DNA of 64,000 nucleotides. It comes from Sphingobacteriaceae bacterium (GTDB lineage: Bacteria > Bacteroidota > Bacteroidia > B-17B0 > Aurantibacillaceae). Both the position numbers and the translations under genes were made by a program. Every line of letters starts with the position of its first letter. The stretch's first letter is position 1. Below are positions 32,180 to 36,565 of this stretch, in pieces. The notes under the pieces are model-generated. The model was not told the origin of the DNA, ran no database searches, and worked only from the letters and a program-made list of their open reading frames with translations. The stretch lies in NCBI GenBank assembly GCA_002319075.1, contig NVQB01000001.1:4030001-4094000 (forward strand), read 5' to 3'.

Positions 32180-32992
32180 ATGAAAAATTTATTCAAAGTT
32201 ATCGTGTTTGTGCTTCCTGCAATGTTGGTGTTTCCTTCTTGCGAAAAAGATAAAAAAACAGTTGAAGACCCTGGAGTGCCAGCGCCAATAGCTGGAGGAT
32301 CTTCCACAATTTCGGCAACCGGTACCATGAAGGTTGAGTTTCATAATATGGTGGATTCTGATCCATTAGAGTATGGTAAGATGTATAAAAATCCACATGG
32401 TGATCCTTATACCATTAGCAAATTCAATTATTATATCAGCAACATTGTTCTTACTAAAAATGATAATTCAAAAATCACAATTGCCAATCAATACCAGATA
32501 ATCGAGCAGGCAGATGATACAACGCGCACAATTAAACTAAAAGGTGTTCCCGAAGGTTCTTATAAGGCAATTCGTTTGATTTTAGGTGTTGACAGTGCGC
32601 GCAATAAATCAGGGGCGCAGTCTGGTGGTCTTGACGTTAATTATGCTTCTGATATGTACTGGGGCTGGAACCAGGGTTATATTTTTCTGAAGTTAGAAGG
32701 TACATCCGATTCGTCAGCTACAAAAAGTATTACTTTTCACATGGGTGGGGCAAGCGGTGTCTATAAAACACAGCGCGAAATAAATATCGATTTTGTAGCA
32801 GCTGAGGCAAATGTTACAAAGACTTCTACACCGACATTGCATTTGAACGTAGATGTAAATGAGATGTTTAAAAGTCCGGCTTTAATAGCTTTCTCTGTAA
32901 ATTCGAACGCGCAATCAGCAGGCACAAAGATCGCAAAAACCATCGCTGATAATTATGCGGATATGATTAAATACGGTAGTATCAAAAATTAA
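32180..32992 (+). CDS. MbnP-like lipoprotein
   Basis: 270 residues. Lipoprotein signal with lipidated Cys21 (VFPSC) followed by EKDKK. The mature domain has the MbnP family pattern: MKVEFHNMVDSDPLEYGKMY near residue 50, FNYYISNIVLTK near 82, and the aromatic signature YWGWNQGYIFLKLEG at 160-174 (Trp161 and Trp163). In methanotrophs MbnP binds copper, and a Trp is converted to kynurenine by its partner MbnH. The stop codon overlaps the start of the MbnH-like gene (TAATG at 32990-32994), showing tight coupling. The copper role here is inferred from the family. Confidence 0.85.
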   Translation: MKNLFKVIVFVLPAMLVFPSCEKDKKTVEDPGVPAPIAGGSSTISATGTMKVEFHNMVDSDPLEYGKMYKNPHGDPYTISKFNYYISNIVLTKNDNSKITIANQYQIIEQADDTTRTIKLKGVPEGSYKAIRLILGVDSARNKSGAQSGGLDVNYASDMYWGWNQGYIFLKLEGTSDSSATKSITFHMGGASGVYKTQREINIDFVAAEANVTKTSTPTLHLNVDVNEMFKSPALIAFSVNSNAQSAGTKIAKTIADNYADMIKYGSIKN

Positions 32993-34038
32993 TGATCAAA
33001 AAATTCATACTTGCATCTCTTCTTATAGTTTCAGTGATTTCCTGTAAAGTAGATCCTAAAATTCCTGTTGCCGACAACCTTGTACTAACCGTGCCTGAAG
33101 GGTGGCCGCAACCGCATTATAATTTTGAAGAGAATCCGATTACGCAGGATCGTTTTATTTTAGGCCGTGCTTTATTTTATGAGCCCATGCTGAGTGTTAC
33201 AAACTCTATATCCTGCGGCACTTGTCACCAGGACTTCGCTGCGTTTGCCAATAAAGGTCATATTACAAGTCACGGGGTGGTTGTAGATGGCGTGGAGCGC
33301 GAGGGTACACGAAACAGTCCCGGACTTTTTAACCTGGCGTGGCATCCCACCTTTATGTATGATGGAGGAAGTAGTCACATTGAGTTACAGCCTGTAGCTC
33401 CCATTACCAACACGCTGGAAATGGCAGAACAGATTCCTTCGGTAATTGCTAAGTTGCAGTCTTCACAAAAATACCGCAGCCTTTTTAAAAATGCTTATGG
33501 TGATGAAGTTATAACAGGTCAGAGACTTTTAAAATCTTTGGCTCAGTTTATGGGATTAATAACTTCTTCAAACAGTAAGTTCGATCAGTATAAACGTCAC
33601 GAAAAAAATGTTCAGTTAACTTCTGAAGAAGAAAGAGGATATGGCTTATTTCAGGCTAATTGTGCTTCGTGTCATAAAGAACCGTTATTTTCGGATTTTG
33701 AGTTCAGGAGTAATGGCTTAGCGATTAGCCGGGTTTACAAAGATAGTGGCAGGGCTCATGTAACATCACTTCCTGAAGACCGTTATAAATTTAAAACGCC
33801 AAGTCTTCGTAACGTGGCGCTTACTGATCCTTATATGCACGATGGGCGTTTCGCTACTTTAGAACAATGCCTCGATCACTATACCAATCCGGCGAAGCAG
33901 ACAGAGAATCTTGATCCGTTATTAAAAAATCCTCTGCCTCTTACTCCACAGGATAAAAAAGATATCATTTCCTTTCTGCATACCCTCAGCGATTTTGAAT
34001 TGATAAAAGATCAGCGTTTTGCAGATCCTAATCACTAA
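32992..34038 (+). CDS. MbnH-like di-heme cytochrome-c peroxidase family lipoprotein
   Basis: 348 residues. Lipobox ISC puts the lipidated Cys at 18. There are two heme-c motifs, CGTCH (75-79) and CASCH (224-228), in the usual places of the MauG/CcpA superfamily. Other typical stretches are RFILGRALFYEPMLSVTNSI, RNSPGLFNLAW, DGGSSHIELQ, FKTPSLRNVALTDPYMHDGR and LEQCLDHY. It is periplasmic-facing. The one-base overlap with an MbnP-like gene identifies it as the probable partner that oxidises MbnP. The overlap is seen directly. The reaction is from the family. The pairing is inference. Confidence 0.88.
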   Translation: MIKKFILASLLIVSVISCKVDPKIPVADNLVLTVPEGWPQPHYNFEENPITQDRFILGRALFYEPMLSVTNSISCGTCHQDFAAFANKGHITSHGVVVDGVEREGTRNSPGLFNLAWHPTFMYDGGSSHIELQPVAPITNTLEMAEQIPSVIAKLQSSQKYRSLFKNAYGDEVITGQRLLKSLAQFMGLITSSNSKFDQYKRHEKNVQLTSEEERGYGLFQANCASCHKEPLFSDFEFRSNGLAISRVYKDSGRAHVTSLPEDRYKFKTPSLRNVALTDPYMHDGRFATLEQCLDHYTNPAKQTENLDPLLKNPLPLTPQDKKDIISFLHTLSDFELIKDQRFADPNH

Positions 34039-34055
34039 AAAAAGTAAGTACTACT

Positions 34056-34430
34056 ATGAACAAATTATTTTTTCTCAGCGCCCTGCTTATTATCGGTATC
34101 AGTTTTTCCTGCAAAAAAAATCAACTGGGAGGGAAGTCAACTGTGAGTGGAGTTGTGGCTCATCACTCTAAACCAATTGCCCGAGCAACAGTCTTTATTA
34201 AATTTAATACAAAAGAATTTCCCGGATCTGACACTACGGCTTACGACGATAAAATACGTGCCGACGAAAATGGTAATTATTCTTTTAAGTGTTACAAGGG
34301 CGACTACTATTTGTACGGATTCGGTTATGATTTTGGCATTGATCCTCCTTACACAGTGGTTGGTGGCGTTCCGGTTCATATTCGTAACAAAGAAGACCTC
34401 GAAATCAATGTGGCTGTAACGGAAGATTAA
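34056..34430 (+). CDS. Small lipoprotein with carboxypeptidase-regulatory-like fold
   Basis: 124 residues. The signal peptide ends with FSC (Cys19). The mature part fits a single CarboxypepD_reg or transthyretin-like beta-sandwich: STVSGVVAHHSKPIARATVF, then DENGNYSFKCYKGDYYLYGF. It starts 17 bases after the MbnH-like gene and is probably in the same operon, making it a possible third component. No metal-binding motif is evident apart from the adjacent His pair HH near residue 36. Function unknown. Confidence 0.72.
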   Translation: MNKLFFLSALLIIGISFSCKKNQLGGKSTVSGVVAHHSKPIARATVFIKFNTKEFPGSDTTAYDDKIRADENGNYSFKCYKGDYYLYGFGYDFGIDPPYTVVGGVPVHIRNKEDLEINVAVTED

Positions 34431-34436
34431 CTATTT

Positions 34437-35204
34437 ATGCCACTAAAAATTACTTTTTTAGGAACAGGTACTTCACAGGGAGTTCCCATGATCGGATGTC
34501 ATTGCGAAGTCTGCAGCAGCGAAGATTCACGCGATAAACGTTTACGCTCTTCTATTTTAATAGAGACTGAAAAAACAAGAATTGTTATCGATTCAGGACC
34601 GGATTTCAGACAACAATTGCTGCGTGAAAAAACTAAAAAGTTAGATGCAGTTGTATTTACGCATGAGCACAAAGATCATATTGCAGGATTGGATGAAGTG
34701 AAAGCTTTTAATTTTATTCATAAAATGCGAATGCCTGTGTATGCCACGGAGCGTGTACAACAGGCTTTAAAACGTGAATTTGCTTATATTTTTGCTGATG
34801 AAAAATATCCTGGTATTCCCGAAATTGATCTTTATGAATTTAATAACGAAACTTTTGCCGTAAATGATATTGTTTTGGAGCCCATTAATGTTTTGCATTA
34901 TAAGCTGCCTGTAAAAGGATTTCGCGTAAATAATTTCGCTTATATCACCGACGCTAATTTTATTGCAGAAACGGAAAAGAAAAAATTACAAAACCTGGAT
35001 GTTCTTGTTTTGAACGCACTGCGCAGGGAACCACATATTTCTCACTTTACTTTTGAGGAAGCGATTGCTATGGTTCAGGAATTAAAACCTAAAAAGGCCT
35101 ACTTCACGCATATTTCGCATCAGTTGGGATTGCATGAAGCATTGAATAAAGAACTGCCGGCTAATATTGAGTTGGCTATGGATGGGCTGCAATTGCTAGT
35201 GTGA
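34437..35204 (+). CDS. MBL-fold metallo-hydrolase (PhnP-like)
   Basis: 255 residues. The metallo-beta-lactamase fold has the start ITFLGTGTSQGVPMIGCHCEVC, with two Cys as in PhnP-type phosphoribosyl cyclic phosphodiesterases. The metal motif HEHKDHIAG (HxHxDH) follows, with IDSGPDFRQQLL, YITDANF and the C-terminal FTHISHQLGLH. It probably hydrolyses a cyclic phosphodiester or nucleotide, with the substrate unknown. It starts 6 bases after the small lipoprotein, so it may be co-transcribed with the MbnP/MbnH operon even though the function looks unrelated. It is cytoplasmic. Confidence 0.88.
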   Translation: MPLKITFLGTGTSQGVPMIGCHCEVCSSEDSRDKRLRSSILIETEKTRIVIDSGPDFRQQLLREKTKKLDAVVFTHEHKDHIAGLDEVKAFNFIHKMRMPVYATERVQQALKREFAYIFADEKYPGIPEIDLYEFNNETFAVNDIVLEPINVLHYKLPVKGFRVNNFAYITDANFIAETEKKKLQNLDVLVLNALRREPHISHFTFEEAIAMVQELKPKKAYFTHISHQLGLHEALNKELPANIELAMDGLQLLV

Positions 35205-36157: not shown

Positions 36158-36565
36158 TTAATCGAATTTAAAAAAGAAAAATACAAGCGCCGCCCATTCC
36201 GGATCTACATTTCGGGCGTAACCAATGGTACTGTGTGAAGCGTTTTCTACCGTTCCATCTTTGCGTACATATCCTTGTGTAGAATGCGATGCGTTTTCAA
36301 TTGTACCGTCAGCCCGCACGTAACCAACAGTACTGTGACTGCTATTTTCGATGGTGCCATTCGATCTGATGTATCCAATAGTTGTGTGTGAGGCGTTTTC
36401 AATAGTGCCGTCTTTGCGTATATAGCCTTTGGTAGCGTGACTGCTATTTTCGACAGTTCCATCAGCACGTACATACCCTGTTGTAGAATGACTACTTGAT
36501 TCAATGGTTTGGGCCAAAGAACTAAGAGCTAAACACAAAAATGAAATTAAAAATATCTTCCTCAT
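36158..36565 (-). CDS. Small secreted protein of six 17-residue tandem repeats (beta-flower-like)
   Basis: 135 residues. The signal peptide (FLISFLCLALSSLAQ) is followed by six consecutive 17-residue units starting at residues 20, 37, 54, 71, 88 and 105. The consensus is T(I/V)EN(A/S)SHSTxGYxRxDG. The end is hydrophobic, EWAALVFFFFKFD, as in proteins ending in a last beta-strand or membrane contact. The repeat resembles the short beta-rich units annotated as beta-flower folds in Bacteroidota, but that is recollection and not verified. It is probably a closed beta-repeat ring exported through Sec. Function unknown. Confidence 0.8.
   Translation of the reverse strand: MRKIFLISFLCLALSSLAQTIESSSHSTTGYVRADGTVENSSHATKGYIRKDGTIENASHTTIGYIRSNGTIENSSHSTVGYVRADGTIENASHSTQGYVRKDGTVENASHSTIGYARNVDPEWAALVFFFFKFD
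36203..36508 (-). repeat. 51-bp coding tandem repeat, six copies
   Basis: The DNA encoding the six 17-residue units. Copies are similar but not identical in nucleotide sequence, with changes mostly at third positions and at the variable residues. It could shrink or grow by slippage or recombination. Confidence 0.75.

Follow-up and report, generated by a model that had tools for sequence, protein, structure and literature searches.

Three consecutive lipoprotein genes in an uncultured member of the Bacteroidota raise the question of what an MbnP/MbnH-type pair does in the envelope of such a bacterium, and what a third, small lipoprotein encoded directly behind it contributes. The genes lie in the window, i.e., the whole stretch of 64,000 nucleotides that was analysed. 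It appears somewhat probable that they encode an envelope copper system in which MbnH makes a kynurenine-copper site on MbnP and the third, His-His lipoprotein handles copper next to MbnH. With a peroxide-type oxidant acting at its pair of c-type hemes, MbnH would convert Trp161 of MbnP to kynurenine, and the kynurenine, together with Met159 and His187, would complete a Cu(I) site. The His36-His37 pair of the third protein would handle copper beside MbnH, the protein most likely serving as a carrier or as a docking subunit for MbnH on MbnP. That the tryptophan is oxidised, that either lipoprotein binds copper, and what the third protein does are inferred from families, folds, conserved residues, and gene linkage.

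The three genes form one tight run, and their open reading frames, with the short overlap and gap given in Table 1, are as described in an earlier, sequence-only reading of this DNA. By eye, each product opens with a signal peptide that ends in a lipobox cysteine. A gene that looks accA-like by eye lies upstream in the opposite direction. The MBL-fold hydrolase gene downstream is probably read through from the trio, and the same gene follows the third gene, directly or one gene further on, in 16 of 79 related loci; it is not thought to be a part of the copper system. No copper gene adjoining the trio was seen in the window, which was inspected by eye rather than by a family scan over its whole length. 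MbnB (TIGR04159) was not found in the bacterium's own genome (5.65 Mb, two contigs), which agrees with the earlier statement that methanobactin genes are absent; the same search gave a sub-threshold match in 1 of the 14 named control genomes. Further along the window (36158-36565), a 135-aa secreted-type protein carries repeats like SSHSTxGYxRxDGTIEN, and a similar gene occurs in 7 of the 79 related loci.

Table 1. Genes and residues of the locus, with their positions in the window
Feature	Position	Strand	Remarks
MbnP-like lipoprotein gene	32180..32992	+	270 aa
M159-Y-W161-G-W163, MxWxW motif of MbnP	32654..32668	+	alignment with other MbnPs
H187 of HMGG, predicted Cu ligand of MbnP	32738..32740	+	aligned with HLG of methanotroph MbnP
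MbnH/MauG-type di-heme lipoprotein gene	32992..34038	+	348 aa; one base shared with the MbnP gene
First CxxCH heme motif, C75-H79, of MbnH	33214..33228	+	alignment
Y123 of MbnH, at the inter-heme Trp position of MauG and bCCP	33358..33360	+	alignment and residue spacing
Second CxxCH heme motif, C224-H228, of MbnH	33661..33675	+	alignment
Third lipoprotein gene	34056..34430	+	124 aa; 17 bases after the MbnH gene
H36-H37, invariant His-His pair of the third lipoprotein	34161..34166	+	alignment of copies
MBL-fold hydrolase gene	34437..35204	+	6 bases downstream of the third gene

The MbnP-like protein and its predicted copper site

By profile and predicted fold, the product of the first gene is an MbnP. 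It matches PF20243 with an E value of 3e-52 and 177.6 bits, above the gathering cut-off of 27; its score against the MbnP_like_WxW equivalog TIGR04052 (53 bits) is below the curated cut-off of 140, and it is therefore not filed as that equivalog. Among PDB structures, the best fold match of its AlphaFold2 (AF2) model (pLDDT 87) is 7l6g, the MbnP of M. trichosporium (VIA Z 18.0, rmsd 2.7, 205 aligned residues), which was also returned by Foldseek (E 5e-9), and the second-best match has a Z of 6.6. A sequence search of the PDB gave nothing significant for this protein, i.e., 7l6g came only from the fold search.

The sole tryptophans of the protein, W161 and W163, are those of its YWGWNQGY motif. 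M159, W161, W163, and H187 occupy the MxWxW and His columns that the protein shares with the MbnPs aligned to it (two Methylocystis, Ideonella, Trichormus, and Deinococcus); in the Met column, Trichormus has Leu. According to a PNAS paper on MbnP from 2021, the first Trp of WxW is reportedly converted to kynurenine, with His and Met serving the Cu(I) site. The ligand roles predicted here for Met and His, and the choice of W161 as the predicted kynurenine site, follow that work; the corresponding column is Trp in 27 of 28 MbnPs from outside the order. The sequence-only reading had predicted kynurenine at W161 or W163, and this prediction, narrowed to W161, stands as a prediction of chemistry.

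The MbnP/MbnH pair is ordinary in Bacteroidota and represents a form of a known system. MbnP was found in 25 of 99 sampled Bacteroidota genomes and in 56 of the 61 genomes of the family; outside the order, an MbnH-like gene lies beside MbnP in each of the 28 loci that were fetched for 31 MbnP hits. The predicted copper histidine is kept in 78 of 78 MbnPs that adjoin an MbnH vs. 14 of 20 others (p 3.7e-5), and all four residues (M-W-W-H) in 71 of 78 vs. 13 of 20 (p 0.007); since the rows are related and not independent, these p values overstate the contrast. The former group consists of 46 near relatives, four further proteins of the order, and 28 from outside it, whereas the latter consists of 15 near relatives and five further proteins of the order, and includes L030, which stops close to the end of its contig, and a second MbnP in L023, which is one gene away from an MbnH. 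Among the 61 distinct MbnPs near that of the window, none of the 46 with an MbnH next door deviates at any of the four residues, and 8 of the 15 others keep them all. Most of the seven exceptions lack the second Trp as well as the His and still have the first Trp (TWGK, PWGK, AWGR, VWGK, and DWGQ); L158 reads MMMQ, and in L029 (HWWH) Met alone is changed. The logic of the predicted kynurenine-copper site recurs across Bacteroidota, with a natural contrast in that the predicted copper His is missing only from MbnPs that have no neighbouring MbnH.

The proposition that every MbnP beside an MbnH has M-W-W-H is true of the 46 near relatives and fails more widely. Outside the order, the His is present in 28 of 28 such proteins, the first Trp in 27, the second Trp in 24, and the full set in 23 (L210, L211, L213, L216, and L218 deviate), and among the four further proteins of the order the full set is present in two (L226 and L229 deviate). 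A divergent MbnP type beside MbnH has Met for the second Trp (MWMH; L216:1336-2157, L218:1426-2157, L226:1210-1944, and L229:3757-4518). Four MbnPs near a third gene and without MbnH (L151, L153, L158, and L160) read PWGK, AWGR, MMMQ, and VWGK, respectively; all four lack the second Trp and the site's His, and only L158 lacks the first Trp as well. The bacterium's own genome contains a second MbnP-MbnH pair (L005:7485-11998), preceded by genes that by eye encode a YHYH-like protein, a small periplasmic-type protein, and a sigma-factor-like protein. It also contains a third MbnP (L004:8992-9756) without MbnH beside it, in which WAW and HVGG are kept and upstream of which, on the other strand, a TonB-receptor-like gene starts at approx. 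1.4 kb.

The di-heme protein and its inter-heme position

The di-heme protein is MbnH-like and lies outside the TIGR04039 (MbnH) equivalog, which is its best NCBIfam match (206 bits) and is scored below the curated cut-off of 362.85. It matches CCP_MauG (PF03150) with an E value of 3e-47, and H79 and H228 align with the heme motifs of MauG and methanotroph MbnH. The earlier recognition of an MbnP/MbnH-type pair is supported by PF20243, the 7l6g fold, PF03150, and the two CxxCH motifs. The best PDB sequence match of the protein is the di-heme enzyme 6e1c (E 2.5e-36), which we take to be MbnH, and the bCCP 1iqc is nearly tied with it (6e-36).

This near tie would suit a plain bacterial cytochrome c peroxidase that removes H2O2 and of which the two lipoproteins are chemically independent. 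An axial tyrosine had been considered as a mark of MauG-type vs. bCCP proteins. Y297 aligns with the Tyr of MauG and methanotroph MbnH, in a column that is presumably that of MauG Tyr294, and the same column is Tyr in four other di-heme genes of the bacterium's own genome. In two records named cytochrome c peroxidase, it is Tyr in one and His in the other, and the mark was dropped; because the column fails to separate the groups, the probability of a plain peroxidase is slightly raised. Such an enzyme nevertheless seems very unlikely, given that MbnP and MbnH adjoin in all the loci fetched outside the order, that the MbnP histidine is lost only away from MbnH, and that TIGR04039 is the best NCBIfam match. 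In public plasmid records, three MbnH-like di-heme genes (L176:3477-4637, L177:3288-4559, and L178:3387-4538) bear the label 'methanobactin export MATE transporter MbnM', which is apparently a name error.

The inter-heme Trp is absent from the MbnH of the window. Its Q133, P137, and E143 align with Methylobacterium MauG, the counterparts there being Gln103, Pro107, and Glu113 (and Tyr294 in the axial column); Y123, which precedes them by 10, 14, and 20 residues, respectively, is by this spacing placed at MauG Trp93. Q133 itself is replaced by Met or Phe in 10 of 57 MbnH rows of the order. Sequences longer than 420 aa entered the MbnH alignment with their last 420 residues. In a tree of 68 MbnH rows, a 40-row clade with support of 96/89 and 39 distinct sequences has His or, in the window, Tyr at the inter-heme position. 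His occupies it in 38 other rows of the clade (L001 repeats the window, and the two PT_Y rows are one sequence), and the third gene is next door in every one of the 40 rows. MbnP lies directly upstream of each of the 16 Trp-type MbnHs in the order's MbnH clade; the Trp-type rows L007 and L011, di-heme genes of the bacterium's own genome without MbnP, fall outside that clade and were left out of the 16. Outside the order, the position is Trp in 21 of 28 proteins, with two Phe, two Ala, three Arg, and no His among the other seven, which weakens the inter-heme Trp as a defining feature of MbnH.

According to PMC6405878, the inter-heme Trp of MauG is midway between the hemes and is needed, whereas BthA has Ser257 at that position and still forms bis-Fe(IV). 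Both belong to the same superfamily as the MbnH of the window, and BthA likewise does without the inter-heme Trp; however, the enzyme of the window has Tyr there, and the substrates of MauG and BthA differ. The window offers an enzyme with Tyr where the work on MauG, as presented in PMC6405878, holds Trp to be essential.

The third lipoprotein: predicted fold and gene linkage

The third lipoprotein matches no family above its cut-off (DUF6795 is below), no CarboxypepD_reg/transthyretin-like family at E 0.01, and no PDB entry by sequence. Its AF2 model (pLDDT 91, pTM 0.77) gives a VIA Z of 10.7 to 1qmu and 10.4 to 3e8v, and the protein is, as modelled, a sandwich of the transthyretin/carboxypeptidase-regulatory type. 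The His-His pair is present in every copy (0 of 152 ORFs, or 88 distinct proteins, lack it; an earlier tally of 99 included truncated copies). Residues M1, C19, K21, G26, H36, H37, A44, K49, P56, G82, Y84, D92, G103, and G104 are invariant in 40 aligned proteins, and 79 of the 88 have no Trp. Two copies contain one in-frame stop (G044:C97:5676-6020 and G028:C31:26025-26414).

Within its order, the protein has matches in 85 of 87 genomes at E 1e-3, 75 of these at 1e-20 or better, vs. 4 of 395 genomes in a phylum sample, where the match is strong only in the bacterium's own genome. It is lineage-specific, strong matches having been found in only one order of MAGs. Among 61 family genomes, 30 of 87 hits are located 1115-1212 bp downstream of an MbnP domain on the same strand, a recurrence that exceeds what chance would give. 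For the linkage analysis, 80 of 108 relatives were kept, which gave 79 loci from public Bacteroidota contigs, 74 of which were judged (one duplicate and four cut loci were left out). The third gene directly follows MbnH in 42 of the 74, comprising 31 MbnP-MbnH-third loci, 8 MbnH-third loci without MbnP upstream, and 3 whose upstream side is cut. Four further loci are MbnP-third without MbnH, and 28 have neither gene directly upstream, including L161 and L168, where the pair is one gene further up. The count is 8 rather than 10 because the sequences of L077 and L126 begin where a contig does, and an MbnP missing there does not count; near three MbnHs denoted 'P-' (L092, L161, and L168), the third gene is nearby and not directly adjacent.

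The sequence-only reading had asked whether the third gene invariably accompanies the pair, and these counts show that it does not. The pair itself, the lipoprotein nature of the products, the failure to find MbnB, and the kynurenine prediction from the same reading stand. To these are added the restriction of strong third-gene matches to one order, copies of the third gene in efflux and SCO loci, and the loss of the inter-heme Trp in the MbnH of the window. Relatives of the third gene lie beside CusA/CzcA-type permease genes in L143, L146 (both above the TIGR00914 cut-off), and L145 (a fragment), in loci that also contain an RND adaptor gene; some others are near an HMA-domain protein. The second copy in the bacterium's own genome is in a run with a SCO1/SenC protein. 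The CusA/CzcA and SCO surroundings count in favour of a copper-related role; 12 of the 79 loci, some of them cut, have none of the listed neighbour types. Hitchhiking of the third gene was judged unlikely because its linkage recurs and its mean column identity is 52%, compared with 57% for MbnH and 39% for MbnP (in different row sets).

Alternatively, the third protein could be a structural subunit without a metal, which anchors MbnH in the membrane or assists in its loading. One of the best fold matches is 6hif_Y, a transthyretin-like chain from the hydrazine dehydrogenase complex (Z 10.3, rmsd 2.2, 80 aligned residues), and third genes follow MbnH more often than an MbnP without MbnH (42 vs. 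4 of the 74 loci). However, the fold is common, with 45 of 999 chains reaching a Z of at least 8 against the model, and both the strict conservation of the His-His pair and the copies beside CusA/CzcA-type genes without MbnH speak against such a subunit, which makes this role quite improbable.

About equally improbable is that MbnH and the third lipoprotein are the working couple, in which MbnH oxidises the His or a conserved Tyr (e.g., Y84) of its partner or docks to it, with MbnP as a separable second client. The eight MbnH-third loci without MbnP directly upstream and the complete linkage of the 40-row His/Tyr clade to the third gene, set beside 16 of 16 Trp-type MbnHs with MbnP, point in this direction; however, missing MbnP in 8 of 37 vs. 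0 of 16 gives only p 0.09, and most third proteins contain no Trp. Moreover, in G055 and G034, MbnH stays with the third gene (in G055 at a contig end), and the MbnP, in which WxW and His are intact, is encoded at another site next to a leader-like gene and OM333, a gene of approx. 333 aa without a family whose outer-membrane place is a guess, which suggests that MbnH may act in trans. That MbnP has been lost from genomes in which it is absent beside MbnH is unsupported, as there is an MbnP hit in G011, G029, G034, G048, G055, and G059, and only G057 (84% complete) of these seven genomes has none. It is somewhat less doubtful, though still unlikely, that MbnPH has been rebuilt in this one uncultured order, with an MbnH without inter-heme Trp and the His-His lipoprotein, as a client or copper relay, forming the core and MbnP being separable. 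The observations that count against the preferred copper system are that no copper gene was seen by eye next to the trio, the Tyr in place of the inter-heme Trp, the scores below the TIGR04039 and TIGR04052 cut-offs, the MbnPs beside MbnH that deviate from the full M-W-W-H set, the 28 of 74 third genes without a partner directly upstream, and the 12 of 79 loci with none of the listed neighbours. The third protein is a named candidate component for reconstitution.

Known systems and leader-like proteins of relatives

A few methanotroph proteins are known to carry a kynurenine next to their copper site. The set in the window resembles MbnP/MbnH of Methylosinus trichosporium OB3b in the MbnP fold, the MxWxW motif and His, the closest di-heme structure (6e1c), and the pairing of the genes. 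Unlike the OB3b pair, it consists of Bacteroidota lipoproteins, comes without a detected MbnB, has Tyr or His for the inter-heme Trp, and includes a third lipoprotein. MopE/SACCP and CorA/CorB of methanotrophs, as described in PMC3912023 and PMC3621798, likewise combine a surface copper protein, whose copper is flanked by a kynurenine, with a neighbouring di-heme gene; the analogy with the window lies in the copper-protein gene beside a di-heme gene, the kynurenine of the window being predicted. New here are a lineage-specific lipoprotein with a His-His pair, the association of this lipoprotein with MbnH, and the substitution at the inter-heme Trp position. Among the literature matches listed, in which subscription papers are thinly covered, no description of the third gene or of a Bacteroidota MbnPH was found, which weighs little.

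CruR (DUF2946) of Bordetella pertussis is an upstream ORF that senses copper, contains CXXC, and has a terminal RAPP; its operons include MbnPH-like genes (PMC9426467). In relatives, an exported-type family of approx. 125 aa (36 members, alignment A6; e.g., L100:3602-3976, L191:663-1055, and L219:1495-1857) heads MbnP, SCO, or TonB-receptor genes. Its members have a hydrophobic N terminus and a C...CxGxC motif, and in 36 of 36 copies, some of them near-identical, Pro-Pro lies 2-7 residues from the C terminus and 63-71 residues past the Cys motif. Pro-Pro played no part in picking these proteins; among 430 other ORFs of similar length, a set that contains spurious ones, 25 have it in their last 14 residues. 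None of the 36 members matches DUF2946, and the assignment to that family was rejected; a leader-like gene was looked for next to the trio of the window and was not found. The likeness to CruR consists in the heading of MbnP operons, the Cys motif, and the terminal Pro-Pro, and by this analogy the leader-like proteins are candidate copper-sensing leader peptides of Bacteroidota. The leader-like gene adjoins MbnP in 11 of the 28 loci outside the order. On a Deinococcus radiodurans plasmid (L180:2531-6044), MbnP, a MauG-like protein, a hypothetical protein, CopC, and CopD are encoded in one run.
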